Assembly (NCBI RefSeq): GCF_038003525.1
Contig: NZ_JBBOPI010000002.1
Location: 124,001 to 188,000, forward strand
Direction: 5' to 3'
Length of the DNA stretch: 64,000 bases
Source: Solibacillus sp. FSL H8-0538
GTDB lineage: Bacteria > Bacillota > Bacilli > Bacillales_A > Planococcaceae
Position numbers and translations under genes: made by a program
The notes under the pieces: model-generated
Told to the model about the DNA's origin: nothing
What the model saw: the letters and a program-made list of their open reading frames with translations, nothing else
Database searches by the model: none
Shown: piece after piece, positions 16,348-62,954 of the stretch
Position numbering within the stretch: the stretch's first letter is position 1
Layout of the letters: each line of letters opens with the position of its first letter

Positions 16348-17021
16348 GATAGTTGACTTCTTTCACTTAGGATTACTACATAAGGATCCAGGGGTGTTGA
16401 TTAGGGAAATATTAAAATGTTATTTGTTATGAAGGTTCATCATCATAACATGGGGTTGATATTCATTTCGGCTGGGCGCTCTGATAAGACGCTTTGGGGC
16501 AACAGGATGTAGGTCACGAAGGCCTTGTCACAGAGCGTGACGCTTTTAGCTTTAGTTCATTAAGCCTCGAATTTTTATAATTCACTTATTCTACCATTCG
16601 GACGTTCTCAATGAATGAAAAGTTTCATTAAAACATCTCGGAATCTCTAAAGAAGAACGAACGGAAGCCATTTTTGTGGGCGTTGCTAGTAAAGCCTCCT
16701 CAGCCCTTTTCAAAGGAGTCCATTTCTTAAATGCTTATTAATGGGTGGGGTTAGTCGATTTTTACGATATATACATATACAAATATATGCGTATATCCCT
16801 ATATGCATATACGCGAATGTTTGATTAAGCTAGACTTTTGCTTTGCGATGAAAAAATACATAGAAAAGTATTTTTAATAGTGTGATGTTTAATTTAGTGT
16901 ATCAAGACTCTACTTCACTAGGTATTTTAATTGTGATGTTGCATATGAAAAAGACGTAAAAACCACTAATCCTTCAAAAAAACGCTACTCCCGAAGATCA
17001 AAGACAAGCAGCGGTATTCCT

Positions 17022-17082
17022 GTACTCAGACGATTATTTAGACGAGGTGACGGGTAATCCCCCATCTCAATTCGTCTGAGCG
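17022..17082. repeat. CGCTCAGACG palindrome, copy 1
   Basis: ACTCAGACGA at the left pairs with TCGTCTGAGCG at the right around GAGGTGACGGGTAATCCCCC. Related palindromes are at 21294-21353 and 37960-38024. Confidence 0.5.
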
Positions 17083-17120
17083 CCTCTTTTCTGAATGGTT
17101 TTCAAAGAAATAGTACCCAA

Positions 17121-17152
17121 AGAGTAGAAAAGAATAGAAAAGAATAGAAAAG
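17121..17152 (+). repeat. AGAATAGAAA direct-repeat array
   Basis: Three consecutive 10-bp units (AGAGTAGAAA, AGAATAGAAA, AGAATAGAAA) followed by AGATTGCCGCAGAATAGG. The same array with the same kind of 3' context recurs at 34895-34918 and 61185-61215. Confidence 0.6.
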
Positions 17153-17341
17153 ATTGCCGCAGAATAGGATGGGTAGGCTATGGAACAGACGATTTCTATA
17201 GAGCCCTGGTTTGATTAAACGTTCTTCTTGGCCCCCTTTATTAGCGCATAAAAAAGAATCCCATTTAATGAAGGATCGCTCAAATTGGATTCTTTCGGTG
17301 CGATTTAGTATGCAGTTATTAGAAATATTGTACTATGCTTG

Positions 17342-23500: not shown

Positions 23501-26500
23501 TTAATGCTGAACATGCTCTTTTCCATCCATTATTGCATAGTCATGCTCCACTGCGGCTTCTTGAATTTCATAGTACGCCCAATGCAGTGGTGTCACGTCT
23601 GAAAATTTGTTCGTAATTGTTTCTGTGATTGGTCCTCGCTCGAATAGACGATTTAACACTTTGACTGCCTGTGCACGTGTGAGCGTTTCCTTTGGGCGGA
23701 ATGTCCCGTCAAGTGTTCCTTCCATGAGACCGATTTCCGAGATACGGGCAATATCGTCTGCTGCCCAATGTTTGTCTGATACGTCCGTAAATAGTTTAGC
23801 GTCTGCTGTCGGCTTACAATACCGGGCTCCCTCTGGATTGTCCACACATTGCTTATCAATCCAGCGCATCATAATCGCTGCCATTTGTGCACGTGTGATA
23901 GAAGCGTTTGGTGCGAATGTATCGTTCGTGCCAGTCATAATGCCGATTGAACGAACATATTCGATTTCATCTTTTGCCCATGCCTGCTTCGTATCGCTGT
24001 AGCTAGATGTCGTCGCTCTAGGAATGGTATTATTCGTCAGTTGACGTGCTAGTAAAGCGGCCATTTGCTGACGAGTTACAGAGGCGTTCGGGCGGAATGT
24101 GCCGTCATTGTATCCATGAATGTATGAATTATGGGCGCCTTTCGTTTCCTCTGGCTCTTTCTCTATGGAGGCAAAGTATTCTGCTGCTCCTTCTACATAC
24201 AGCACCGTAAAGGTAGAGAAGTGATTAACATCAAAGGTTACCCCCTTCGTTGTGCTGTTGAACTGTGTGAGACGCCCATGAACCACCTCTTTTGTTCCGT
24301 TGCTATGCTCAATAAAAATTGCTAAATGTTTGATTTGTTCCGCTGTTGCATTTGCTGGTAGTGGTAACGTTAATGTAACAGGGCGATTTTGCATATTCGT
24401 CTCAATCGTCATCGGGCGTCCTAAAATTTCTATCTTGGCGCTATTTGCTTTCACTACTTCTTTTACTTTTTCCTCTTGTTTTGCACGTGTTTCAATCGCA
24501 ACCTGTTCTTCATCCTTCTTCACTGGTACAACACGGAAGTATAGATCATCTGCAAATGTAGCGAATGAAGCGTTTGGAATAAAAATCGTTGCATTGACGG
24601 TACCAATCGAGAGACTCGTTTCACCTTTTCTCAAAACTGAAACTGCTGCTTTTGACACATTAATTGTCGTTTCGGATACTTCATCCTTGTTATCCGGAAT
24701 AACAATTCTCGAAACCTTAGTTTCCTTTCCTGCTAGCTTTTCAACCGACTCCGATGCTTTTTCTGGTGTAAAGGTCACTATATCCTTAACAAGACCATTT
24801 TCTTTTGTGCGCGTAATCGGTGTGCGAACGAGTAATTCAGTTGGATTTGCATCATCGACAACATCGACAACAATTTCTTCTGTAGTTGGCCCAGTTGGTG
24901 GTGGTGCTGGATTCGGAGTAGAAGAATCACCTGAAAAATTTTGCGTCCATTTTGCATACAGTGTCCTGCTGCCTGTAATCGGTTTTGTTGGATCAAATTT
25001 AGTAGTTAAGTTTGTATCTTTATACCAGCCTTCAAAAGTAAAACCTGTTTTTGTTGGCGCTGCAGGAAGTGTAAGCATTTTATTGTGCTCAACAATCACT
25101 GTAGGTACTGCAGAACCACTGTTTGTTTCAAACGTCACGTTGTATTTATTGATCGTCCACTGAGCGTATAGGGTTACGTTCTCTTCACCCATTTTCAGTG
25201 TTCCATTTGGTAAATACGCAGTGCCCGTTCCATCTGCTTTCGTGTTCCAGCCAGTGAATGTATAGCCTGTTTTTGCTAAGTCTCCTGAGTTGCCCGCTAC
25301 CGTTACCGAAGCGTCTTTCGCATACTTGGTGTTGTCTACTGGCACTGTGCCAATTACGCTACCATTGCCATTGTATTGGACAGTATAGCCTGCTAGGGTT
25401 GTCCACTTCGCATACAGTGTCATGTTGCCTGTAATCGGTGTTGTTGGATCGAATTTAGTAGTTAAATTTGTATCTTTATACCAGCCTTCAAATGTATAGC
25501 CTGCTTTTGTTGGGGCTGCAGGAAGTGTAAGCAACTTATTATTCTCGACAGTCACTGTAGGTACTGCGGAGCCACTGTTTGTTTCAAACGTCACGTTGTA
25601 TTTATTGATCGTCCACTGAGCGTATAGGATGATGTTTTCTTCGCCCATTGTCAGTGTTGTATTTGGTAAATAGGCAGTGCCCGTTCCATCTGCTTTCGTG
25701 TTCCAGCCAGTGAATGCATGGCCTACTTTCTCTAAATCGCCTGAGTTCCCCGCTACCGTTACTGAAGCATCTTTTGCATACTTGGCATTGTCTACTGGTA
25801 CTGTGCCAAGAACGCTACCATTGCCATTGTATTGGACAGTATATGTTGGAGTGCTTGGAACGGCAGTCCACTTTGCATATAGTGTCATGTTACTTGTAAT
25901 TGGTGTTGTTAGATCAAATTTAGTAGTTAAGTTTGTATCTTTATACCAACCTTCAAAAGTAAAACCTGTTTTTGTTGGGGCTGCAGGAAGCGTAAGCATC
26001 TTATTGTGCTCGACAGGCACTGTAGGTACTGCGGAGCCACTGTTTGTTTCAAACGTCACGTCGTATTTATTTATGGTCCACTGAGCGTATAAGATGACGT
26101 TTTCTTCACCCATTTTCAGTGTTGCCTCTGCTAGATACGCAGTGCCCGTTCCATCTGCTTTCGTGTTCCAACCAGTAAATGTATGGCCTACTTTCTCTAA
26201 GTCTCCTGAGTTGCCTGCTACCGTTACCGTTGCATCTTTTGAATACTTGGCGTTGTCTACTGGCACTGTGCCACTCAAGCTACCATTGCCATTGTATTTG
26301 ATAGAATAGCCTGGTAGGGTTGTCCATTTTGCATACAGTGTCATGTTGCCTGTAATTGGTGTTGTTGGATCAAATTTAGTAGTTAAACTTGTATCTTTAT
26401 ACCAACCTTCAAAAGTAAAGCCTGTTTTTGTCGGTGCTGCAGGAAGCGTAAGCATCGTATTGTGCTCGACAGTCACTGTAGGTACTGCGGAGCCACTGTT

Positions 26501-29482
26501 TGTTTCAAACGTCACGTTGTATTTATTGATCGCCCACTGAGCGTATAAGATGACGTTTTCTTCACCCATTTTCAGTGTTGTATTTGGTAAATAGGCAGTG
26601 CCCGTTCCATTTGCTTGCGTGTTCCAACCATTGAATGTATGGCCTACTTTCTCTAAATTACCTGAGTTGCCCACTACCGTTACTGAAGCGTCTTTTGCAT
26701 ACGCGCCACTATCTGTTGGCACTGTGCCAATTACGCTACCATTGCCATTGTATTTGACAGTATAGGTTGGAGTGCTTGGAATGGCAGTCCACTTCGCATA
26801 TAAAGAGAGATGACTTGTTACTGGCGTGCTGAAAACGTAGGCTGTATTCAAGTCTGCATCACTATACCAGCCTTCAAAAGTAAAGCCTGTTTTTGTTGGG
26901 GCTACTGGTATACTCACTTTTCCATTCTCAAGTACCGTTTGACTAGCTACTGCACTTCCATCATTTGGGTCAAAATCGACGCTATAGCTATTTACAACCG
27001 TTATGGTTCCATTCACCACATCCGATGTCATAGCTTCTACATTTTCATCACTAAATTCGAGCTTTAATTTATCTGTCTTATCAATAGTTAAGGCGCTGTT
27101 TCCTAGAGAAGACGTGCTTTTTACTTTTAATTTGATGGTAAATAATTGTGTGGCTGATGATAATAGAGCATCTCCTCCTGTCTCATCGAACCAACCTACC
27201 CTTAAGTAACCTTGTTCATTAACGATGTTTTGGGAGAAGTCTCCATCATTAGGCTTAGTAGAAATTATTTCTTCAACTTCCAAAACATTTGGGTCAAAAT
27301 CAATTTGTATTCCATAAGCCCCTATCCCAGTTGAGGGATCATTAATTGACACAGGAATTTCAACTGTCTGCCCTTTACCCGCTACTACGTTTCCAATGGT
27401 TACAGTTATAGCTACTTCGGCTGTTTTCCATTTTGCATATAAAGAGAGATGACTTGTTACTGGCGTGCTGAAAACATAGGCTGTATTCAAGTCTGCATCA
27501 CTATACCAGCCTTCAAAAGTAAAGCCTGTTTTTGTCGGTGCGGTTGGAGCTGTCAATACCTTGTTATAATCGACAGTCACTGTAGATACTGTAGAACCAC
27601 CATTTGTTTCAAACGTCACGTCGTATTTATTGATCGCCCACTGAGCGTATAGGATGATGTTTTCTTCGCCCATTGTCAGTGTTGTATTTGGTAAATAGGC
27701 AGTGCCCGTTCCATCTGCTTTCGTGTTCCAGCCTGTGAATGTATAGCCTACTTTCTCTAAATCTCCTGAGTTGCCTGCTACCGTTACTGAAGCGTCTTTT
27801 GCATACGCGCCACTATCTGTTGGTACTGTGCCAATTACGCTACCATTGCCATTGTATTTGACAGTATAAGTTGGAGCGCTTGGAATAGCAGTCCACTTCG
27901 CATATAAAGAGAGATGACTTGTTACTGGCGTGCTGAAAACGTAGGCTGTTTTTAAGTCTGCATCACTATACCAACCATCAAATATAAAACCTGTTTTTGT
28001 CGGTGCGGTTGGAGCTGTAATTACCTTGTTATAATCGACGGTCATTTTATTAATGGCAGAACCACCATCTGTTTCAAACGTCACGTCGTATTTATTGATC
28101 GCCCACTGAGCGTATAGGGTTACGTTTTCTTCACCCATTGTCAGTGTTGCATTTGGTAAATAGGCAGTGCCCGTTCCATCTGCTTTCGTGTTCCAACCAG
28201 TGAATGCATGGCCTACTTTCTCTAAATCGCCTGAGTTTCCTGCTACCGTTACCGAAGCGTCTTTTGCATACGCGCCACTATCTGTTGGTACTGTGCCAAT
28301 TACGCTACCATTGCCATTGTATTTGACAGTATAGGTAGGAACGGCAGTCCACTTCGCATATAAAGAGAGATGACTTGTTACTGGCGTGCTGAAAACATAG
28401 GCTGTATTCAAGTCTGCATCACTATACCAGCCTTCAAAAGTAAAGCCTGTTTTTGTCGGTGCGGTTGGAGCTGTCACCGTCTCTCCCTGATTGACAGTTT
28501 GACTTGTGACAGATGAGCCTTCATTGCTATTGAAAGTGACTGTATAGCTGTTTATTGGAGCTGGTGTTGCAAACGTCTGGTCAGCTCCGTACGCTATGCC
28601 TTTCGAATTTGTTGCATATGCTCGGTAGTGGTACGTCGTGTCTGCTGTTAGATTACTTAAAGCTACTGAAAATACGCCCGTTGTACCTGCATCATTTGCC
28701 GTTACTTTTGTTACACCTGACGCCCCGATTTCTGGATTAGAAGTTGGTCCGTACACAATCCCACGCTCTGTCACTGTTGCACCACCATCCGCTGTCACAT
28801 CTCCTCCAACAGTCGCTCCTGTTGCCGTAACATCTGTTGCTGGTGTAGTCGTTGTAACAGTTGGTGAAGTAGTACTACTGATAGGATTATCCGAATTCGT
28901 TACAGAACCTGGTCCAGTAATCGCAAAATCAGCAGTACCCGTATCACCTGCATGGTAACTTGTCATAACGATAATGTAGTTTGTCCCAGCTGTTAAATCA
29001 ATGCTAGGGATCGTAGAAAAGTAATTTGTCTCACTCGTATCATCATTTGCCTTTAATATGTTATTTATTGGATTTGTAGAATTAAAAGAATTCTCATAGA
29101 CAAATAAGGCGGTATCATTTATGAAGCCATCAGTTGTAACAACTAATTTTGCATCTGTTACTTCAATAGAATAAGTACCTGTAATACTTGGAGTGAAATA
29201 TTGGATATAGTAATTATATTTAGTATTTTGTGTACCGTAAAAATCCCTTGGATCACTATCCTTTGTGTCGTATACCCATGAAATTGAATCCCAAGGAGCC
29301 CCAAGTCCATTGGTTTCATGATAGAATATCGGTCTATTAAATTTTTTTGAACCATCTAAACTGCCTGTAAACTTAGTAGTTGTAGTTGCTGCTTCCACGC
29401 GGTTTTCTATCAAATTACCATTTGGTAGATACCCGACTATAATCATAAAAATTAACAGTAGCTTCATTATTTTTTGTACCAT
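23501..29482 (-). CDS. Giant S-layer-anchored protein with InlB repeats and a cohesin-like domain
   Basis: 1993 residues. Order: signal peptide (1-31); unique N-terminal domain (about 32-190); FN3-like domain (about 205-305, TTTPATDVTATGATVGGDV, TYHYRAYATNSKGIAYG); five InlB/Flg_new repeats ending LYAKW or LYAQW; a cohesin-like domain (about 690-835, VTIGNVVAGKGQTVEIPVSI, IQIDFDPNVLEVEEI); nine more repeats; a Pro-rich hinge and a beta-rich domain; three SLH domains (about 1790-1985, YNDGTFRPNASVTRQQMAAL). SLH domains bind pyruvylated cell-wall polymer, so the repeats project outward. AAGGAGGGAAGG precedes the ATG. It is the last gene after three tail-collar proteins and likely shares their transcript. 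Adhesion is the likely role. The cohesin hints at binding a dockerin-like partner, none of which is in the window. Confidence 0.93.
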   Translation of the reverse strand: MVQKIMKLLLIFMIIVGYLPNGNLIENRVEAATTTTKFTGSLDGSKKFNRPIFYHETNGLGAPWDSISWVYDTKDSDPRDFYGTQNTKYNYYIQYFTPSITGTYSIEVTDAKLVVTTDGFINDTALFVYENSFNSTNPINNILKANDDTSETNYFSTIPSIDLTAGTNYIIVMTSYHAGDTGTADFAITGPGSVTNSDNPISSTTSPTVTTTTPATDVTATGATVGGDVTADGGATVTERGIVYGPTSNPEIGASGVTKVTANDAGTTGVFSVALSNLTADTTYHYRAYATNSKGIAYGADQTFATPAPINSYTVTFNSNEGSSVTSQTVNQGETVTAPTAPTKTGFTFEGWYSDADLNTAYVFSTPVTSHLSLYAKWTAVPTYTVKYNGNGSVIGTVPTDSGAYAKDASVTVAGNSGDLEKVGHAFTGWNTKADGTGTAYLPNATLTMGEENVTLYAQWAINKYDVTFETDGGSAINKMTVDYNKVITAPTAPTKTGFIFDGWYSDADLKTAYVFSTPVTSHLSLYAKWTAIPSAPTYTVKYNGNGSVIGTVPTDSGAYAKDASVTVAGNSGDLEKVGYTFTGWNTKADGTGTAYLPNTTLTMGEENIILYAQWAINKYDVTFETNGGSTVSTVTVDYNKVLTAPTAPTKTGFTFEGWYSDADLNTAYVFSTPVTSHLSLYAKWKTAEVAITVTIGNVVAGKGQTVEIPVSINDPSTGIGAYGIQIDFDPNVLEVEEIISTKPNDGDFSQNIVNEQGYLRVGWFDETGGDALLSSATQLFTIKLKVKSTSSLGNSALTIDKTDKLKLEFSDENVEAMTSDVVNGTITVVNSYSVDFDPNDGSAVASQTVLENGKVSIPVAPTKTGFTFEGWYSDADLNTAYVFSTPVTSHLSLYAKWTAIPSTPTYTVKYNGNGSVIGTVPTDSGAYAKDASVTVVGNSGNLEKVGHTFNGWNTQANGTGTAYLPNTTLKMGEENVILYAQWAINKYNVTFETNSGSAVPTVTVEHNTMLTLPAAPTKTGFTFEGWYKDTSLTTKFDPTTPITGNMTLYAKWTTLPGYSIKYNGNGSLSGTVPVDNAKYSKDATVTVAGNSGDLEKVGHTFTGWNTKADGTGTAYLAEATLKMGEENVILYAQWTINKYDVTFETNSGSAVPTVPVEHNKMLTLPAAPTKTGFTFEGWYKDTNLTTKFDLTTPITSNMTLYAKWTAVPSTPTYTVQYNGNGSVLGTVPVDNAKYAKDASVTVAGNSGDLEKVGHAFTGWNTKADGTGTAYLPNTTLTMGEENIILYAQWTINKYNVTFETNSGSAVPTVTVENNKLLTLPAAPTKAGYTFEGWYKDTNLTTKFDPTTPITGNMTLYAKWTTLAGYTVQYNGNGSVIGTVPVDNTKYAKDASVTVAGNSGDLAKTGYTFTGWNTKADGTGTAYLPNGTLKMGEENVTLYAQWTINKYNVTFETNSGSAVPTVIVEHNKMLTLPAAPTKTGFTFEGWYKDTNLTTKFDPTKPITGSRTLYAKWTQNFSGDSSTPNPAPPPTGPTTEEIVVDVVDDANPTELLVRTPITRTKENGLVKDIVTFTPEKASESVEKLAGKETKVSRIVIPDNKDEVSETTINVSKAAVSVLRKGETSLSIGTVNATIFIPNASFATFADDLYFRVVPVKKDEEQVAIETRAKQEEKVKEVVKANSAKIEILGRPMTIETNMQNRPVTLTLPLPANATAEQIKHLAIFIEHSNGTKEVVHGRLTQFNSTTKGVTFDVNHFSTFTVLYVEGAAEYFASIEKEPEETKGAHNSYIHGYNDGTFRPNASVTRQQMAALLARQLTNNTIPRATTSSYSDTKQAWAKDEIEYVRSIGIMTGTNDTFAPNASITRAQMAAIMMRWIDKQCVDNPEGARYCKPTADAKLFTDVSDKHWAADDIARISEIGLMEGTLDGTFRPKETLTRAQAVKVLNRLFERGPITETITNKFSDVTPLHWAYYEIQEAAVEHDYAIMDGKEHVQH
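25020..28480 (-). repeat. Tandem DNA repeats encoding InlB-type modules
   Basis: Near-identical blocks of roughly 200 bases recur here because repeats 1-14 alternate two module types (TFEGWY-type and TFTGWNTKADGTGTAYLP-type). The block is interrupted by the cohesin-coding stretch (about 26980-27410). Such repeats favour length variation by recombination. Confidence 0.85.
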
Positions 29483-31675: not shown

Positions 31676-32681
31676 ATAGCATCTTCTTTCTATTTTTCGT
31701 GTGAGTGTTACTCTCGTAGATAATACTAATGAATTTCACCCAACTTTATTATACAAATCAAAACTCTCAGAAAACTCTCAAGCATATAATCTAGCTTGGT
31801 GCTCGGTATAGAAAAAAGCGCTGTCGCACAAATAAATTTGCACGCGACAAGCGCAAATCACAAAAGTTTTTAGTCTTAGGGAAAGGTATTGGAGGAGAGG
31901 GCCTTAAACTTACTTATAAGTGCATGCACAAGAACATTCTTTAGATACACTCGAAAAATTTACAGAAAAATAGAAAAGTTTAGAAAAGGAAATAAAGCAA
32001 GTGGGGGACAATTATGTATCGGATGTCGCGCTATAAATTGGGGAACATCCTATTGAACACGAGGTCCTGCAAACCTTACGCAATGGGGACCTCGTGGCAT
32101 TTGCTAAACAGAAAAAAGATTGGATTTTTCAAAAAAGTTTTCCATTCTGCGCAAACTGGGGTGGAGAAAGAGCGTTTTGTAGTGTTTTTAGAGGCGTATT
32201 ACAAAGAACTGAAAAGAAATACTCTACCGTTGTAAGTGTTCAAAAAGTCTGATTAAAAATAGGGTGAACACGTTGATATTTTTACAGAAGAAAAACGCGC
32301 ATCTACAAAAAGATGCGCGTTCAATATGTGCTTTAGGGCTACCATTTTGTCAAAAAGATTGGTTATTTCGAATTATGGTTTGATCAAATACCGACTTATA
32401 ATATTGATAAACGAACAAAATGAAAAGGCATGTTTCGAAAAAAAGATTGATCAAAATATACTTTTTCTAAATTCAATTGAATCTTCCTTTTATAAAAATG
32501 TTTGATAATTTTTGTGCCCTTGCTACATTAAAGCGCCCGATTGTGGAACAAGTACCCAGATGGAAATATAGACGTACCTACAATAGATAATTATGCTATC
32601 TATATATTAGGGTGAAAACTTATCTGCTCGGGGTTCACAAATAATTGTAATTAAACCAATTATAGAAAACATCTTTTCTTC
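31676..32681. other. Intergenic region with remnant and hairpins
   Basis: A GCGCTGTCGC...GCGACAAGCGC hairpin lies at about 31827-31857. An AGAATAGAAA-like array (31963-31988) is followed by a coding-like remnant listed separately. A terminator-like hairpin AACGCGCATCT/AGATGCGCGTT is at 32294-32321, and a GCGCCCGATTGTGG palindrome unit at 32529-32553. The rest is AT-rich without features. Confidence 0.5.
31996..32251 (+). pseudogene. Gene remnant behind a direct-repeat array
   Basis: With one in-frame stop, the frame reads IGEHPIEHE, then VLQTLRNGDLVAFAKQKKDW and FPFCANWGGERAFC before TGA near 32250. A competing frame at 32014-32235 has no ribosome site. The family was not recognised. It has the same array-plus-ruin layout as at 17121 and 61185. 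Confidence 0.35.
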
Positions 32682-48792: not shown

Positions 48793-49156
48793 CATTTCCA
48801 ATTTTAAGTGTAAAAAAATAGGATTTAACTTTCATTCAGACTATCTTTTAATGGATATGGCTAAAGCCTCCATCATCGTCATAGTTGTTTCCAAAATCAA
48901 ATAGTCTCCAAACCTCTTTCATACGCTATAACCCTACTGTAATTGTAGTGTGAAGCTAATTTATCCCCACCCCTCTTTATTTATTGGTGTGGGCACTTTG
49001 AAAAGGACGTGACCCATCCCCTCCGTATACTGACAATATCTTCCTCAAAATACGTAACATGAATATTTATTTTTCAAAAGAAAGTATTGATAAGATTAAT
49101 GCCATCTCTAATTTTTACAACTATATATCGAATGTCAACACTAAACTGAACAACTT
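48793..49156. other. Intergenic region
   Basis: No gene with a ribosome site. The right-hand 20 bases before the IS3 remnant (CTAAACTGAACAACTTTTAT) may be the end of that element. Confidence 0.35.
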
Positions 49157-49487
49157 TTATAAGGACCGCTGCTTAAACTCAATTGGCGTTAGATAGCCCA
49201 TTGTTTGATGAATTCGAATGTTATTGAACCAGCTCACATAATCCCAAAGTGCAAGATCTAGCTGTTCAAGTGAAAGGAACGTGCGTTGGTACACAAATTC
49301 GATTTTAAAACTCTTGTATGTGGCTTCTGCTCATGTCTATCATAGGGACATCCCTTTGCACTTAGTGAACGTTGAATACCGAATGCCTCAGTTACTTCTG
49401 CCATTAATTGATTATCAAATTCGGAACCACGGTCTGTGTGAAATAATTGTACGTTGGTTAAGTTGCCCTTAATACTGCTCAATGCTA
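49157..49487 (-). pseudogene. IS3 family transposase, C-terminal remnant
   Basis: On the minus strand LFHTDRGSEFDNQLM has the second Asp of the DDE motif and AFGIQRSLSAKGCPYD continues it. After a frameshift comes WFNNIRIHQTMGYLTPIEFK then QRSL-stop, the typical IS3/IS150 OrfB ending. OrfA and the N-terminal half of OrfB are gone. Confidence 0.82.
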
Positions 49488-49555
49488 AATGAAATAATAA
49501 GAAATTACGAAAATGAATGTAATAGGGGCATTCAAAAGTGAGTTAATAAGATAAA

Positions 49556-49600
49556 AAAAGAGCCAATTCTGATTGGATTTCAATCGGAATTGGCTCTTTC
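49556..49600 (-). terminator. Terminator of the first MerR-like relic
   Basis: AGAGCCAATTCTGATTG with its complement and T runs. A related hairpin ends the second relic at 53646-53686. Confidence 0.75.
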
Positions 49601-50060
49601 TCTATTCAACCAGACGTTCGTGATATTCATGTAGCGCATGCGTCTACTGCACTGAGAAATGTTCGTTAATATAGGCAGCAATGTACTGTTTCTATTCGAT
49701 TTCGATTCGCGTAGAACTGAAAAGTTTTCCGAAGAGTTGCCATCCTTTTGTTGTTGCGTATTGCGTTAGAGCTTCATTTTTAAGACGCTTTGTTCAATGT
49801 GTTTTTCTCTGATTTTGATGGCGATGCCCTTACTATTTGATGTGAGAATGCCCTCTATTTTTTCTGCTAGTTTCTGGTTTTTCTGCTCTAGTTGTTTCCG
49901 TTATCGATTGAAGCTTTTCGATTTCTTGCGAAGATTCGGAAGGAAGAGCTGTTATTTTTGATGGAGAAAGTCCTCGTTTATGGTGAGCTTCATTTCTTCA
50001 GTATGTCTGATTTGTTTGAGTGGTTGGGTTATAGTATCTAAACGTTTCGAGATGGGGGAT
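49600..50060 (-). pseudogene. MerR-like/coiled-coil DNA-binding protein, relic copy A
   Basis: The DNA aligns over about 450 bases with the C-terminal half of the gene at 53690-54622 (same LFGKL, YIAAYI and LNRLENEALTQYA-coding stretches) but has several small insertions and deletions, and no frame stays open. Together with copy B it brackets the tryptophanase cluster as direct repeats about 4.1 kb apart. Confidence 0.75.
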
Positions 50061-50172
50061 TTCCGTAAGCTTGATGAAAATTTTTTCATAAGTGTAAAAA
50101 AATTTTCATAATGTCGTTTTTTTTGCATATATATATATCAAAACAAGATGCAAGAAATAAGGAGGGAAAAAT

Positions 50173-51558
50173 ATGAAATTTATGACAGCAGAACCATTTC
50201 GAATAAAGATGGTAGAGAGAATAAAGAAGACTACTAAGGAGGAACGCCAAGGGTGGTTAAAGGAGGCAAACTACAATGCGTTTAAAATAAAGGCTGAAAA
50301 TGTATATATTGATTGTTTAACAGACAGTGGAACATCTGCCATGAGTAGCGAGCAGTGGTCCGCATTAATGTTGGGAGACGAATCTTACGCTGGAAGTAAA
50401 AGTTTTTACAAATTAGAAGAGTCTGTTCAAGATATATTTGGTATGCCATATGTACAGCCAACTCACCAGGGAAGAGCTGCGGATTATATAATGGCCAAGT
50501 TGTATGCCAAAGAAGGAAAATATGCAATTGGTAATATGCATTTTGATACGTTTAGAGGGAATGCAGAAGTATTAGGGGCAATTCCAGTTGACTATGTGAT
50601 TGACGAAGGGAAAGATACTGCAAGTGCTGCTCACCCATTTAAAGGAAACATCGATATTAATAAAATAGAAAATTTAATTGAAGAAAAAGGAAGCGAGCAA
50701 ATTTCGGTTGTCATTATAACGGTTACTTGTAATAACAACGGTGGACAGCCCGTTTCCATGCAAAATATTAGAGAAGTGAGTGCATTAGCAGGAAGATATA
50801 ATATTCCTGTTGTAATAGATAGTGCGCGTTTAGCAGAGAACGCTTACTTTATTCAACAAAGAGAAGATGGATATAAAAATAAGTCAATTAAAGAGATTAC
50901 AAGGGAAATGTTTTCGTATTGTGAGACGGCTACAATGAGTTCAAAAAAAGATGGTCTAGTTAATATTGGGGGTCTCTTTGTTACAAGGGATGAAGAAGTT
51001 CTTCAAATGGCACAGCAATTAGCGATTGTACATGAAGGATTTATCACATATGGCGGATTAACAGGGCGAGATTTAGAGGCGCTTGCAGTTGGGTTGCAAG
51101 AGGGATGCGATCAGCAATATTTAGAGTATCGTATTAACCAGGTGAAATACCTTGGAGATCGGCTTGAAGAAAAGGGTGTTCCTATTGTAAAACCAACTGG
51201 AGGACACGGAGTTTATGTTGATGGTAGAAGGTTTTTCCCGCATATTCCACAACACGAATTTCCTTCTCAACGTCTCGTTGTAGCTCTTTATGAAGAAGCC
51301 GGAGTTCGTGCTGTCGAATTAGGTGCGTGTGCATTTGGCTCAAAAGATCCCGTTACTCAAGAACCTATATGGCCTGACGTAGAAACGATGAGAATAGGTA
51401 TCTCAAGAAGAGTATATACAAATAGTCATATGGATGTTATAGCTAATGCTTTAGGTGAGATATACAAAAATCGAAATGAATATAAAGGAATGAAACTTGT
51501 ATATGAAGGACCAATTACGTCTTTAAGACACTTTACTGCTGGATTTGAATTACTTTGA
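50173..51558 (+). CDS. tnaA: Tryptophanase
   Basis: 461 residues of the beta-eliminating-lyase family, converting tryptophan to indole, pyruvate and ammonia. Seen are LTDSGTSAMSSEQWSALMLG, the VQPTHQGRAAD segment, CNNNGGQPVSMQNIREVSAL, VVIDSARLAENAYF and the PLP Lys in TATMSSKKDGLVNIGG. Against tyrosine phenol-lyase speaks the RAVELGA stretch: that enzyme has Arg in MERG there, while tryptophanases have VEIG. GGAGGG precedes the ATG. No TnaC-like leader peptide with Trp was found in the 110 bases upstream. It is first in a three-gene run with a transporter and a regulator. Confidence 0.9.
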   Translation: MKFMTAEPFRIKMVERIKKTTKEERQGWLKEANYNAFKIKAENVYIDCLTDSGTSAMSSEQWSALMLGDESYAGSKSFYKLEESVQDIFGMPYVQPTHQGRAADYIMAKLYAKEGKYAIGNMHFDTFRGNAEVLGAIPVDYVIDEGKDTASAAHPFKGNIDINKIENLIEEKGSEQISVVIITVTCNNNGGQPVSMQNIREVSALAGRYNIPVVIDSARLAENAYFIQQREDGYKNKSIKEITREMFSYCETATMSSKKDGLVNIGGLFVTRDEEVLQMAQQLAIVHEGFITYGGLTGRDLEALAVGLQEGCDQQYLEYRINQVKYLGDRLEEKGVPIVKPTGGHGVYVDGRRFFPHIPQHEFPSQRLVVALYEEAGVRAVELGACAFGSKDPVTQEPIWPDVETMRIGISRRVYTNSHMDVIANALGEIYKNRNEYKGMKLVYEGPITSLRHFTAGFELL

Positions 51559-51618
51559 ATTTGATTTAAGTTAGAAATACTTTTTGCTATGAAGTCCCCA
51601 AAACAATGGAGGTGCTAA

Positions 51619-52968
51619 ATGAAAAATGGCGAAAGAGAACAATGGTCATCCAGTTTAGGGTTTATATTAGCATCAGTAGGTGGCGCAGTCGGATTAGGGG
51701 CGGTTTGGAAGTTCCCTTATACGGTTGGCCAATATGGAGGAGCAGCCTTCTTTATCGTATTTTTAGTCGTGCTTTTACTGATTGCCACACCCATTTTAAT
51801 GATTGAATTTGGGATTGGTAGAAAGACAAAATTAAATTATACCGGTGCTCTGAAGGTACTATTCCCGCAGAAAAAGTGGTATCTATTTGGAATAGTAGGA
51901 CTGATAGTTTTAATAATTGTATTATCTTTCTATATGGGTGTGTCTGGTTGGACAATTGCTTACTTATTTAAATCCTTATTTGGATCATACTCTGGAAATT
52001 CACCGGATTTGATAGCCAATGATTTTGGAAACTTTTTAAATTCCCCTCTGGAACTATTATTTTGGATGTTTGTAATGGCGGTGCTAACAGGGGTCGTTGT
52101 ATATAAAGGAATCCAAAAAGGCATAGAAAAAGTTTGTAAAGTCTTAATGCCACTTTTATTCATAATGATTATTATCTTATGCATAAGAGCAATCACATTA
52201 CCAGGAGCGCAAGCTGGACTTGAATTTTATTTAAAACCAGACTTCCGTGCACTCACTTTTGAGGGCATTCTTGCAGCAATCGGATTAGCCTTCTTTACGT
52301 TAGGTGTGGGGGCTGGAAACCTTGTTATATATGGAAGTTATCTTGATAATAAAAGGACTATTGCTAGTAATACCTTTATTATCGTAATTGCAGATGCTTT
52401 AATTGCAGTTATGATGGGGTTCATTATTTTCCCGGCTGTTTTTGCTTATGGAGTTGAACCTAGCGCTGGTCCACCGTTAGTATTTATCACATTGCCTATT
52501 ATTTTTGCTCAAATGAAATTCGGTATGCTGTTTGCTGTTATTTTTTATTTGCTTCTAATTTTTGCATGTTTAACTTCAACAATCGCCATATTGGAAGCTA
52601 TCGTAGGCTACTTCGTTGATGAATGGAAATGGAGTAGATTAAAAACTGTTTTAATAACGTTAACGGGTATATATGTTATAGGTGTATTCCAAATGTTATC
52701 TTTTGGCCCTCTGGCGGACTTTACTATCTTCGGGAAGACGATATTTGAGTTCTCGGACTATTTAGTATCTAACATCTTGTTACCTGGTGGGGGTCTCGCT
52801 TTACTTGTATTTGCTGGTTGGCTGCTAAAACCGAAGATGTTACTTGATGAAATAAACACTGGAAATGGTCTTAAAGTAAATCATTACTATACGATAACAG
52901 TGAGGTATCTTGCACCAATAGCCTTAGCGATTGTTTACTTACAATTATTGGGGATATTGAAACTTTAG
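51619..52968 (+). CDS. Sodium-dependent (NSS/SNF family) transporter, probably for tryptophan
   Basis: 449 residues with 11 or so membrane helices, typical of bacterial neurotransmitter:sodium symporters. It begins with WSSSLGFILASVGGAVGLGA then VWKFPYTVGQYGGAAFFIVF, the unwound TM1 sodium/substrate site. TM6/7 show AIGLAFFTLGVGAGNLVIYG. The tryptophanase next to it suggests tryptophan import, as for TnaT beside tryptophanase in Symbiobacterium. GGAGGTG lies before the ATG. Confidence 0.92.
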   Translation: MKNGEREQWSSSLGFILASVGGAVGLGAVWKFPYTVGQYGGAAFFIVFLVVLLLIATPILMIEFGIGRKTKLNYTGALKVLFPQKKWYLFGIVGLIVLIIVLSFYMGVSGWTIAYLFKSLFGSYSGNSPDLIANDFGNFLNSPLELLFWMFVMAVLTGVVVYKGIQKGIEKVCKVLMPLLFIMIIILCIRAITLPGAQAGLEFYLKPDFRALTFEGILAAIGLAFFTLGVGAGNLVIYGSYLDNKRTIASNTFIIVIADALIAVMMGFIIFPAVFAYGVEPSAGPPLVFITLPIIFAQMKFGMLFAVIFYLLLIFACLTSTIAILEAIVGYFVDEWKWSRLKTVLITLTGIYVIGVFQMLSFGPLADFTIFGKTIFEFSDYLVSNILLPGGGLALLVFAGWLLKPKMLLDEINTGNGLKVNHYYTITVRYLAPIALAIVYLQLLGILKL

Positions 52969-53022
52969 GAGACACATTTAACTTCATTGTAGTTCAGAAA
53001 AAAGAAATGGAAGGGTGAGCCA

Positions 53023-53631
53023 ATGGATTTATTAAACTATGTACCATTTGTTGGATTTTTAGCGCATTTTCTAGGACCAGATGTAGAAATAAGATTAAGT
53101 GATGCAGAGAAAGAAGAAGTAGTATATGCGCACCCTTCTGATATTTCGAAAGGAAGTTCTATTCTTGAAATTGAAAAGAGATTTATTGAGGAAGAACGTT
53201 ATAAGGAACGAGATTCAGTGATTGATTATAGAGCTCTTTCAGTTGATGGAAAAAAGCTGAAGTCTGCAACTCATTTTATTAAAAATCATAATAATCAACT
53301 ATTAGGACTCTTAACCATTAACTATCCCGTTGATGAACTAATTGAATTTCGGAATATGTTAAATAATTTAATTAGTGGGTATAGAACTAAAGAAGAAAAT
53401 TACTTTGAAAGTGTTACTTTATCTGTTGAGGAGTTAATGACAAATACGATTCAAGATGCTGTAAATAAGTTCAAAGTCCCGGCAAGTCGGCTTTCTTATG
53501 AAGAAAAGATGAAGCTTATTCAAACCTTAGATGAAAAAGGTACGTTTTTAATAAAAGGATCAGTTACAGAATTAGCAAAGATACTAAACACTTCTGAAAC
53601 GACTGTATATCGTTATATAAATAAATTGTAA
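53023..53631 (+). CDS. YheO/DauR-type transcriptional regulator
   Basis: 202 residues. A YheO-like PAS domain comes first (VGFLAHFLGPDVEIRLSDAE, VYAHPSDISKGS, LLGLLTINYPVDE), then a C-terminal HTH of the matching family (LSYEEKMKLIQTLDEKGTFL, IKGSVTELAKILNTSETTVY then RYINKL). Such regulators control amino-acid catabolism (DauR for D-arginine), so it likely regulates the tryptophanase operon it ends. It has its own GAAGGGTGAG ribosome site. Confidence 0.9.
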   Translation: MDLLNYVPFVGFLAHFLGPDVEIRLSDAEKEEVVYAHPSDISKGSSILEIEKRFIEEERYKERDSVIDYRALSVDGKKLKSATHFIKNHNNQLLGLLTINYPVDELIEFRNMLNNLISGYRTKEENYFESVTLSVEELMTNTIQDAVNKFKVPASRLSYEEKMKLIQTLDEKGTFLIKGSVTELAKILNTSETTVYRYINKL

Positions 53632-53689
53632 TATTATTTTAAAAACAGAGCCAACTTCGATTGAATTTCAATCAGAATTGGCTCAGTTT

Positions 53690-54622
53690 CTATCTAACCA
53701 GACGTTCATGATATTCATGCAGTGCCTGAGTCAATTGCTCTGAGAAATGCTCCTCGATATAGGCAGCAATGTACTGTTTCTTTTCGATTTCAATACGCGC
53801 AGAATTGAAAAGTTTTCCGAAGAGTTGCCATCCTTTTGTTGCTGCGTATTGCGTTAGGGCTTCATTTTCAAGGCGGTTTAAGACACTTTGCTCAATGTGT
53901 TTTTCTCTGATTTTGATGGCGATGTCCGCATTATTTGATATGAGGATTTCCTCTACTTTTTCGGCTAGTTCCTGATTTTTCTGTTCCAATTGTTCCGTTA
54001 TCGATTGAAGCTTTTCAATTTCTTGCGAAGATTCGGAAGGAAGTGCTTTGATTTTTTGTTGGAGAAAGTCCTCGTTTAAAGTGAGCTTCATTTCCTCGGT
54101 TTCTTCATCTTGATCCATTTGAAATAAACCAGTGTGCATGATTTGTGCGAGCGCTTGGCTTAGGGTATCTAAACGTTTGTCATAAGTCGTGTCGGGTAAG
54201 TTTTCTTGAGCCGGTACTTGTTTGATGATATGACCATCTTCATTAATCCGTAAAAGTTGTTTTAATCCTTTCACACGATACTCATCTTTTAATAGCAGAA
54301 GCATGCGTAGCTTCAAAATCGCTTTGAAGTCTAAGCGAATAACGGTTGCTATTGTTGGATTTGATGCTTGTCCATCGAATAGGTATTCTTCAAATGGTTT
54401 AATGTAGTAACGTCGGTAACGTTAAACCAGCTTGCGACTTCGGGTGTTGAGTAGTACTACTTCTCAATCAACTCATCTAAATACGCCTCTGATAAAAAAT
54501 GCTGCTCTGCTGGTGTTGCCTGGATTACTTGATATAATGGATCATTCGCGAGTACCTCTTGTATACGCTTCTCTATTGAAATCGTTTGTAAGCCCGTAAT
54601 CAAATAACGCATATATATGACT
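53690..54622 (-). pseudogene. MerR-like/coiled-coil DNA-binding protein, copy B
   Basis: From ATG 54622 the frame reads MRYLITGLQTISIEKRIQEV, LANDPLYQVIQATPAEQHFL, then DELIEK and a TAG at about 54455. It continues YYSTPEVASWFNVTD, a MerR-like helix-turn-helix, then shifts frame to YYIKPFEEYLFDGQASNPTI. From 54316 it is open to the end: LKLRMLLLLKDEYRVKGLKQ, a long coiled coil (EKLQSITEQLEQKNQELAEK) and a helical C-terminus. The intact protein would have about 310 residues. Phage- or plasmid-type DNA binding is inferred. Fragments of the same gene lie at 17181, 49600 and 61240. Confidence 0.75.
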
Positions 54623-54669
54623 GGCACCTCCCGGTACGATAGATATATCAAATAAGGGAGGTGTTTTCT

Positions 54670-54864
54670 ATGCCAACAACTAAACTAACAATTGTCCCCG
54701 TGACGCTAGCCCCTATCATTGACGAATCTTCATTTACAAATTCACCGCAATTCCATTCTGATCCAAGTTGCGTAATTAAAACAGCTACCGCAGAAATCTC
54801 TTTCTTTAATGGCGTAGATGAGCACATCATCCAAACGATCATGAAGGAGCTGAATAATCAATGA
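54670..54864 (+). pseudogene. IS66 remnant: TnpA-type gene and start of tnpB
   Basis: GGGAGG precedes ATG 54670 (MPTTKLTIVPVTLAPIIDES). The end TAEISFFNGVDEHIIQTIMK then ELNNQ matches the C-terminus of IS66 TnpA proteins of Firmicutes. The stop overlaps an ATG starting MKHDFTSVQNIEL, the usual TnpB N-terminus, which breaks off at about 54900. It is a different IS66 lineage from the element at 40.4 kb. Confidence 0.6.
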
Positions 54865-54932
54865 AGCATGATTTTACGAGCGTACAAAACATTGAACTGA
54901 TATAACAGTGTTTTGAGCTTTTTTGTGTTTAA

Positions 54933-54955
54933 CCAAACTTTGATTTGGGAACGTT
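54933..54955. repeat. CCAAACTTTGATTTGGGAACGTT repeat member
   Basis: The first 20 bases, CCAAACTTTGATTTGGGAAC, equal those at 45188. Looser members are at 56165-56188 and 56797-56827. Confidence 0.55.
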
Positions 54956-55086
54956 ATTTAGGTTTATTTTGTATACTTTATAAATCCTTGTTGAACTAAA
55001 GCACCCGTTAGTTTAAGTACATTTCTTCACAAACTAAAAAAATAGAAAGTAACAAAGAATCGTACTTTCATTTATATTAACATTAC

Positions 55087-61028: not shown

Positions 61029-61092
61029 TGAACTGAACCCCGAGTAAGTCCATTTTTTTTAAAGTGTCCACTATTCGGGGTTCAGCTCAGAG
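61029..61092. repeat. IS3-like end pair or palindrome
   Basis: TGAACTGAACCCCGAGTA and, inverted, TGAGCTGAACCCCGAATA face each other across about 25 bases. It may be two ends of a deleted IS3-type element or a plain hairpin. Confidence 0.4.
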
Positions 61093-61184
61093 TTGCTTTT
61101 TTTTCTCCTCTTTTTCAAGAAAACTAGCATAAAACCGCCCACAATAGGAAAGAAAAAAATAGAGAAGAAATTTTGAGCGTAGCA

Positions 61185-61350
61185 TAGAGTAGAAAAGAAT
61201 AGAAAAAATTGGCGCAGAATAGGCGAGGGTAGGGTATAGAACAGACGATTTCAATAGAGGAGCGTATACAAGAGGTACTTGCGAAGGATCCCTTATTTCA
61301 AGTCATTCAGGAAACAACAGCTGAGCAGCATAGGACTAATAACAGATGAC
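61185..61350 (+). pseudogene. AGAATAGAAA array and N-terminal fragment of the MerR-like gene
   Basis: The array (61185-61208) runs into ATTGGCGCAGAATAGG, then the frame EQTISIEERIQEVLAKDPLF, QVIQETTAEQH, which matches TISIEKRIQEVLANDPLYQV of copy B near 54.6 kb before diverging. The array is thus part of the 5' region of that gene family. Confidence 0.65.
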
Positions 61351-61463: not shown

Positions 61464-62954
61464 TTAACTTGTAAACCAGTTAATTGGTTGTACATTTAGT
61501 TGAACATTAATTTGTTTAATTTCTTGGAAGTCGTCTAAACCATATTTCCCTAAGCTACGACCAATACCACTTTGCTTATAGCCACCCCATGGAGCTTCTA
61601 CGTAAGTTGGGTGGTAATAGTTGATCCAAGTAATACCTGCACGGATTTGCTTGATAACTCGTAATGCTTTTGCACCGTCATTTGAGAATACAGCACCTGC
61701 TAAACCGTAATCTGAGTCGTTCGCTAATCGAATAGCTTCTTCCTCAGTGCTAAATTTTTGGATTGTTACCACTGGTCCAAAGATTTCTTCACGTACAATA
61801 CGCATATCGTTTGTAACATCTATGAAAACAGTCGGTGCGATAAAGAAACCTTTATCTAATCCATTTTCTGTTAATCGGTACCCCCCCGTTGCTAACGTCG
61901 CACCTTCTAGTTTACCAATTTCGATGTATTCTAAAATGCTGTTCATTTGTCCTTCGCTTACGATTGCCCCTACATCGATACCTTCTTGTAAACCAGGTCC
62001 TACTTTAATATTTTTTGCACGTTCAACATAGCGTGCCACGTACTCATCGTAAATACTTTCTTCGACTAGAATACGGCTACCTGATGAACAAACTTGCCCG
62101 CTGCCGAAGAAAATACCGAATAAGCCGTAGTCTACTGCTGTTTCTAAATCTGCATCTGCGAAAACGATATTCGGTGATTTCCCACCAAGCTCTAATGAAA
62201 TTTTCTTTAAATTACCCGCTGCTGCACGCATAATTTCACGGCCAACTTCTGTACTTCCAGTGAACGATACAAGATCAACATCTTTACTTTCTGCGATTGT
62301 TTGACCAACCACTGAACCACGACCCATGACTAAGTTGGCTACCCCTTTTGGAATACCTACTTCTTCCATAATTTCGAATAATTTAGTTGTTGTAATCGGT
62401 GTTAATTCTGCTGGTTTGTAGACAATTGAATTCCCTGCAGCTAGTGCTGGTGCAATTTTCCATACACCCATTAATAACGGGAAGTTCCAAGGAACGATTA
62501 GCCCCGCAACCCCCACCGGCTCTTTTACGACCATTGATTGCACCGTATCAGGCACTTGGTATGTTTCGCCTTCTGGATGTAAAATTAAACCTGCATAGTA
62601 ACGGAAGCAAGTTGCTGCGTCGGCAATATCAAATGCTGCTTCGTCTTTACGCTTGCCGTTATCCATTGTTTCAAGCACTGTAAGCTCTTCAGCACGTTCA
62701 TCGATTTTGTCTGCAATTGCATTTAGGATCGCTGCACGCTCATGTGTTGTTTTGCTTGACCAAATCCCTGAATCGAATGCTACACGTGCTGCCCGAATTG
62801 CCTCTTCTGTTTCTTCCTTACTTGAACGCGGTGCATATGCGATGATTTCTTGGTTTGCTGGATTGATGACAACGTTTACATCTTCTGAAGAAGTTGAACG
62901 CCACTCTCCGTTAATATAGTTTTTAAGCTTTAGCACTTGTGTTAATGTTTTCAT
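61464..62954 (-). CDS. Betaine-aldehyde-type NAD-dependent aldehyde dehydrogenase
   Basis: 496 residues, full length. PWNFPLLMGVWKIAPALAAG, FTGSTEVGREIMRAA (cofactor turn), catalytic Glu in SLELGGKSPNIVFAD, catalytic Cys in FGSGQVCSSGSR and a C-terminal NYYHPTYVEAPWGGYKQSGI then GRSLGKYGLDDFQE. The ending INVQLNVQPINWF and the HP-x-APWGGYKQSGIGR stretch resemble betaine- and trimethylaminobutyraldehyde dehydrogenases. It follows the VanB-type reductase by 23 bp with AAGGGGG as ribosome site, so it probably oxidises the aldehyde released by the oxygenase system. That link is inference. Confidence 0.92.
   Translation of the reverse strand: MKTLTQVLKLKNYINGEWRSTSSEDVNVVINPANQEIIAYAPRSSKEETEEAIRAARVAFDSGIWSSKTTHERAAILNAIADKIDERAEELTVLETMDNGKRKDEAAFDIADAATCFRYYAGLILHPEGETYQVPDTVQSMVVKEPVGVAGLIVPWNFPLLMGVWKIAPALAAGNSIVYKPAELTPITTTKLFEIMEEVGIPKGVANLVMGRGSVVGQTIAESKDVDLVSFTGSTEVGREIMRAAAGNLKKISLELGGKSPNIVFADADLETAVDYGLFGIFFGSGQVCSSGSRILVEESIYDEYVARYVERAKNIKVGPGLQEGIDVGAIVSEGQMNSILEYIEIGKLEGATLATGGYRLTENGLDKGFFIAPTVFIDVTNDMRIVREEIFGPVVTIQKFSTEEEAIRLANDSDYGLAGAVFSNDGAKALRVIKQIRAGITWINYYHPTYVEAPWGGYKQSGIGRSLGKYGLDDFQEIKQINVQLNVQPINWFTS

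Follow-up and report, generated by a model that had tools for sequence, protein, structure and literature searches.

Introduction

The tryptophanase (tna) cluster of Haemophilus influenzae, reportedly described by Martin et al. in 1998, is said to be an acquired cluster placed between direct repeats of neighboring sequence; it is reportedly chromosomal, has short repeats with uptake signals, and includes a tnaC leader. In this study we analyze a locus of Solibacillus sp. FSL H8-0538 in which a tryptophanase-family operon lies between two decayed copies (relics) of one plasmid gene. The window is a 64,000-nucleotide stretch (G000:C2:124001-188000) of C2, a 191,584-base contig of this genome, and coordinates without a prefix are window positions. 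In contrast to the H. influenzae cluster, the contig is plasmid-like, the repeats are hundreds of bases long and come from one gene, and tnaA is accompanied by genes for a symporter and a YheO-type regulator.

Three other described systems resemble parts of this arrangement. Clostridia have tnaA-tnaT-yheO-type clusters (e.g., L041 of Anaerotruncus colihominis) that share the gene content and gene order of the operon, but their symporters are 54 to 60% and their regulators 39 to 45% identical to those here, and no relic gene adjoins them among the matches kept. The Lysinibacillus plasmids pG5.M11b_2 and pFN9B carry a gene named "DNA primase" that is a full-length homologue of the relics, with one intact copy in the stretch compared and no tna match in the record. 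In the ssrA-specific genomic islands of Dehalococcoides, cargo is captured repeatedly at one gene, as may be the case here; those islands are described as having integration-module genes adjacent to the site of integration (PMC3146451), and no such module was recognized here. Literature searches on plasmid-borne tryptophanase and on single-crossover mobile modules listed nothing on such an arrangement.

The operon and its flanking relics

The operon comprises three intact open reading frames (ORFs) on the plus strand: tnaA (50173-51558), encoding a tryptophanase-family lyase of 461 amino acids; a tnaT-like gene (51619-52968) for a sodium:neurotransmitter symporter of 449 amino acids; and a gene (53023-53631) for a YheO-type regulator of 202 amino acids. 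They match models of the tryptophanase, SNF symporter (PF00209, E = 5e-53), and PAS_6/HTH_22 families, respectively. The initial annotation had placed this operon (50173-53631) between two relics of one gene in the same orientation, and the comparison bears this out. The left (49535-50047) and right (53623-54589) copies are 83 to 86% identical (blastn, 85.8% over 457 bases, E = 3e-132) and form direct repeats D1 to D5 (49535-50047 against 53623-54178; 80 to 94% per block) with a measured spacing of 4088 to 4131 bases, in agreement with the 4.1 kb first estimated. Both lie on the minus strand. The left relic retains the 3' part of the gene, from about codon 139 to the stop, with several stops and frameshifts, while the right relic (53690-54589) begins at about codon 3 and reaches the stop codon, interrupted by a single nonsense codon and a single frameshift. 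The related terminators that had been noted at their ends correspond to related hairpins at 49551-49605 and about 53640-53695, shared by both relics and missing from the L. fusiformis copy. The right-hand hairpin stands between the convergent regulator gene and right relic, within 15 bases of the regulator stop codon (53629-53631), so that the operon fits closely against it. It may end both convergent transcripts; it is absent from the list produced by a consensus scan.

C2 stands beside a 3.74-Mb contig in this genome. We take it to be a plasmid because it has blocks in common with G079:C7, a 74-kb contig from another genus (e.g., C2:88464-91334, 96639-98881, and 106664-107714), and because complete circular Lysinibacillus plasmids carry full-length homologues of the relic gene. 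An overlap of the C2 contig ends was looked for and not found.

The pattern of decay suggests that the two relics parted long ago. In a tree of 16 copies based on the columns of the left relic, the two are sisters (ultrafast bootstrap, 88), with SH-like support of 0.999 on the whole alignment, and their branches measure 0.17 (left) and 0.04 (right) changes per site. Of 79 differing ungapped sites, 54 were assigned to the left relic and 18 to the right, with 7 unclear. The changes in the left relic are even across the three codon positions (17/17/20; chi-square P = 0.85). In counts that span the whole gene, the right relic has 10/9/18 (P = 0.14) and the intact homologue at G079:C7:13445-14359 has 4/2/19 (P = 3e-5); the left relic differs from this homologue in its codon-position pattern (Fisher P = 0.0016). 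A broken copy beside the intact one gives 12/11/20 (P = 0.18). The left relic therefore probably decayed like noncoding DNA and was broken early, while the right relic may have stayed under selection part of the time, its own figures alone being insufficient as proof. The arrangement seems old, given the left branch of about 0.17 changes per site and this neutral-looking decay. On the assumption that the operon arrived as the two copies parted, its three frames would have outlasted about 17% neutral change, which would imply selection on them.

Distribution of the tryptophanase gene

Matches to tnaA at E = 1e-120 or better were found in 24 of 261 genomes of the family, this one (with a single match) included. 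Only one of the 260 others, G228, has a tnaA of the same type (85% identity). The remaining 22 matches all belong to genus g3 and are 49 to 52% identical; L098, the only g3 homologue tested, is a tyrosine phenol-lyase by model (844.4 bits; cutoff, 720.7). Some other relatives have weaker matches (35 to 54%), and the 61 fully listed relatives include no second genome of the same genus. Outside the family, homologues of 86 to 90% identity occur in Bacillus, Peribacillus, Neobacillus, and Oceanobacillus, and also in Tissierella and Maledivibacter, while the order tnaA-tnaT-regulator is found in L019 and several clostridial loci. Since just one of the other 260 genomes carries this tnaA type, the operon looks acquired from outside the family.

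A scan for a donor cluster covered the neighboring genes and the relic gene in 56 of 64 tnaA loci of the wider search and in 5 of 12 loci of other relatives, dropping matches with an E value above 1e-4 or of 60 amino acids or less; no relic-gene match was kept in these loci. In G228 (L148; G228:C1:1927000-1941000), tnaA adjoins what by eye are iron-alcohol dehydrogenase, epimerase-like, class II FBPase, and transaldolase genes, and no symporter match was found within the 14 kb examined.

Recurrence of the relic gene beside other cargo

A DNA profile of the relic gene (nhmmer) identified 14 pieces on C2, 12 on the plus and 2 on the minus strand, in line with the earlier view of the target gene as a repeated one; in this genome, the matches listed (23 scored of 46 candidates) were all on C2. 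G079:C7 gave nine matches at eight places, all on the plus strand, and a reversed-target control gave no match at E = 1. Besides the relics, the window contains 5' pieces at 17016-17204 (E = 4e-19) and 61071-61330 (E = 3e-64) and a 3' piece at 32021-32208 (E = 6e-16), all on the plus strand, and the piece at 61071 adjoins an aldehyde dehydrogenase gene (61464-62954; PF00171). The strand bias of the pieces has P values of 0.013 (C2) and 0.004 (G079:C7, counting matches), both of which ignore kinship among the copies. On G018:C7, two 3' pieces lie on the plus strand, separated by 5.3 kb, and the minus strand holds a full copy.

Among ORFs of 100 amino acids or more, the relic gene is the most repeated on both contigs, with five other places each on C2 (151 ORFs) and G079:C7 (62 ORFs). 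The runners-up on C2, with four other places, are the right relic itself and ABC-type ATPases (by eye); those on G079:C7 are the relic gene's own broken copy (four places) and an ORF with two. Also on C2, a 5' piece and an intact copy that are 95% identical over 431 bases enclose an MFS gene (C2:2814-4547). The pieces on G079:C7 alternate with genes for an AMP-ligase together with a hydrolase, a Schlafen/AlbA-type protein, a protein that by eye resembles a transporter but matches no family model above cutoff, an aldehyde dehydrogenase, and DegV. C2 also carries the degV gene (89.6% over 931 bases), at a distance from all pieces, so the same cargo is found in both settings. Together, these pieces hint that foreign genes land repeatedly at the relic gene.

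Several short 3' pieces in unrelated contexts start at nearly one base, in a palindrome-like stretch (C2:41393, 64971, 65757, and 67562; also L176:3185 and 8533 and L177:4014). Allowing up to 3 mismatches, the motif of these starts has 11 matches in three genomes, all at gene copies or pieces, and none on the 3.74-Mb chromosome of this strain; when 4 mismatches were allowed and the search was confined to C2 and G079:C7, 1 of 11 matches (C2:183245) falls outside any piece. This result fits coding conservation as well as it fits a site. Two other truncated copies end at mobile elements, namely a resolvase gene (Pfam) in L155, with what is presumably a Tn3-like end at the break, and an IS21-like gene pair (by eye) in L156. 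Part of the pattern may thus reflect a gene often hit by insertions.

Origin of the arrangement

We propose that an acquired operon was placed at the plasmid gene by an old recombination event that left a partial duplicate, an account we see as evenly poised between right and wrong. A resident plasmid gene and a circle carrying the operon together with the 3' part of the gene would have been joined by a single crossover, after which the gene stood nearly complete on one side of the operon and cut down to its 3' part on the opposite side; the crossover, the circle, and the donor are all putative. The pattern expected of a single crossover is present, with direct repeats of the target gene at the ends of the insert, one near full and one partial. 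In favor of capture are the sister relationship of the two relics, the probable early breakage of the left one, and the repeated occurrence of the gene next to other cargo. Homologous recombination of a mobile cassette had been suggested initially; acquisition finds support, and the recombination and any present mobility are putative. The check proposed with that suggestion was to look in close relatives for a single intact gene without the cluster. Full-length copies without the operon do exist, on the two Lysinibacillus plasmids, which have no tna match, and in G080 and G192, which are not among the tnaA matches, but their flanks are other than those of the window.

Several observations weigh against this account. 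An exact empty site with the window's own flanks was not found among the stretches compared, and a circular form of the operon was not seen. The closest tnaA homologues (86 to 90%) have the regulator gene upstream of tnaA where it was found, and in the group of at least 86% identity the symporter gene was found in just one locus, L060; therefore, no single donor cluster was found. Among 19 genomes picked for holding the relic gene, three give 8 to 12 matches and sixteen give 0 to 2 (G282 gives 3 with another query). When pieces were dropped at random into intergenic gaps, the blocks bracketed on C2, one of which is the operon itself, numbered 3 where 1.3 were expected at 200 to 300 bases (P = 0.13 to 0.14) and 5 where 1.4 were expected at 500 bases (P = 0.008), the latter only a moderate excess at a distance that, like the others, was picked after seeing the data. 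Leaving out the pieces at C2:7541 and 42714 gave 2 against 0.9 to 1.0 (P = 0.24 to 0.25) and 4 against 1.0 (P = 0.014), and an earlier version of the test, on C2 only, gave the same counts. On G079:C7, the corresponding values are 1 against 0.9 (P = 0.64) and, again only moderate, 3 against 0.9 (P = 0.049). Finally, TnaA falls below the tryptophanase equivalog cutoffs of TIGR02617 (512.0 of 825.8) and NF053783 (600.1 of 750), and also below that of the tyrosine phenol-lyase equivalog TIGR02618 (571.8 of 720.7).

It seems rather unlikely that the gene was duplicated in tandem first and that the operon was inserted later by an illegitimate or insertion sequence (IS)-driven event whose traces are gone. 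Remnants of two IS families do lie close outside the relics, as the initial annotation had noticed, and the same gene has been hit elsewhere, at the resolvase and IS21-like breaks of L155 and L156. By eye, however, neither inner junction has an IS or a target duplication, and the left copy seems to have been broken early. The IS3-family transposase remnant outside the left relic (49130-49486, minus strand; NF033516, E = 2.5e-7, below cutoff) is 94.7 and 95.0% identical over 357 bases to two chromosomal copies. The IS66 leader remnant (54588-54878, plus strand), recognized by a sequence match to the stretch of an IS66 element that extends as far as the tnpB start, occupies the place of the right relic's own 5' region. 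A composite transposon was rejected since these ends are not two copies of one IS, as was a site-specific element, no recombinase gene being recognized in the operon or at the inner junctions.

We consider it unlikely, too, that the relic gene is a dispersed plasmid repeat that brackets the operon merely because its copies sit everywhere between genes. The abundance of pieces on C2 and G079:C7, the near-chance bracketing at short distances, and the 3' pieces that begin at nearly one place in the gene would all suit such a repeat. The two copies beside the operon are nevertheless sisters, and they are the only minus-strand pieces of C2 and longer than most of the others. An extension of the capture proposal is that, on plasmids of this family, the relic gene acts as a standing recombination anchor, next to which each of many entries of cargo leaves a 5' or 3' fragment and so builds a cargo array without an integrase; this extension we regard as speculative and probably too strong.

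Predicted function of the operon

TnaA passes the tryptophanase subfamily model PRK13238 (657.8 bits; cutoff, 285), but so does the tyrosine phenol-lyase control L098 (663.7 bits), and the assignment of TnaA therefore depends on its residues. According to PMC5805759, five positions separate tryptophan from tyrosine lyases. At these positions, TnaA has Asp, Phe, Val, Leu, and His, agreeing with Escherichia coli TnaA at four of five (Asp137, Phe304, Val394, and His463 are kept, and Leu replaces Ile396) and with tyrosine phenol-lyase at none; L098 has Thr, Met, Met, Arg, and Phe. An identity as tyrosine phenol-lyase was not upheld, given the TIGR02618 score reported above, which the L098 control exceeds with its 844.4 bits, and the absence of Arg381, in place of which TnaA has Leu. 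Compared with six Bacillota homologues and that of G228, tnaA has nonsynonymous divergence (dN) of 0.07 to 0.10 and synonymous divergence (dS) of 2.0 to 2.3 in two pairs and saturated in five, indicating purifying selection across that span. The best solved chain for the symporter is 4us3 (E = 4e-91), which we take to be MhsT.

The operon is predicted to serve tryptophan use, with import by the TnaT-like symporter, TnaA cleavage yielding indole, pyruvate, and ammonia, and YheO-type control, tryptophan as substrate and indole as output both being read from the sequence. Indole production, which had been expected from the outset, is a likely phenotype of the strain in view of the active-site residues. 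That the lyase acts in the cell on another beta-substituted amino acid appears quite improbable: the equivalog scores, the Leu in place of Ile396, and the G228 homologue beside sugar-metabolism genes (by eye) without a symporter match within 14 kb would allow it, but the four kept residues, the adjacent symporter with 4us3 as its nearest solved chain, and the listing of A. colihominis, whose homologue is 78% identical and shares the gene order, as indole positive argue against it, though that species also has a second, 41% homologue. The region 5' of tnaA (50048-50172, plus strand) contains a ribosome-binding-like stretch; promoter-like matches there are at chance level (22 against 20.4 in shuffled sequence), and no leader peptide was established before tnaA.

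Identity of the relic gene and other repeats

Intact homologues of the relic gene encode about 302 to 306 amino acids. The gene had been called a decayed MerR-like gene; its decay is evident in the stops and frameshifts, but MerR membership was not upheld, with PF13411 matching weakly in 4 of the 14 homologues scanned (best E = 0.017) and PF00376 in 1 of 14 (E = 0.01), both under the gathering score. The name "DNA primase" of the Lysinibacillus plasmid records was not upheld either, no primase family being among the matches listed for the homologues (in one scan, 25 of 54 families). The right relic is 79.5 and 74.9% identical at the DNA level to the copies on pG5.M11b_2 and pFN9B, respectively, and no relatives were confirmed in viral contigs. 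C2 also carries an intact divergent copy (L086:5256-6167) of about 55% protein identity to that of L. fusiformis, with an upstream region that by eye is rich in AGAATAG.

Beyond the IS66 remnant lies a dispersed intergenic repeat of Bacillota plasmids (54896-55017) of about 115 bases, recognized by sequence matches, with three copies on C2 and many on G079:C7; plasmids of Listeria and Solibacillus have it at 80 to 87% similarity. One Listeria plasmid carries it close to bcrABC genes, and in pSSIL1 a P-type ATPase gene is nearby. Long tandem repeats occur at 24945-28476, inside an ORF of 1,993 amino acids, and at C2:107885-111023.

Implications

The operon is ordinary as an enzyme system and mildly novel as a cargo site. 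If the relic gene does anchor a growing cargo array, environmental plasmids would gather metabolic genes without a transposase or integrase, in a manner recognizable by the fragments of one gene. For the strain itself, whose genome otherwise has no match to this lyase, the operon would provide plasmid-borne production of the signal molecule indole.

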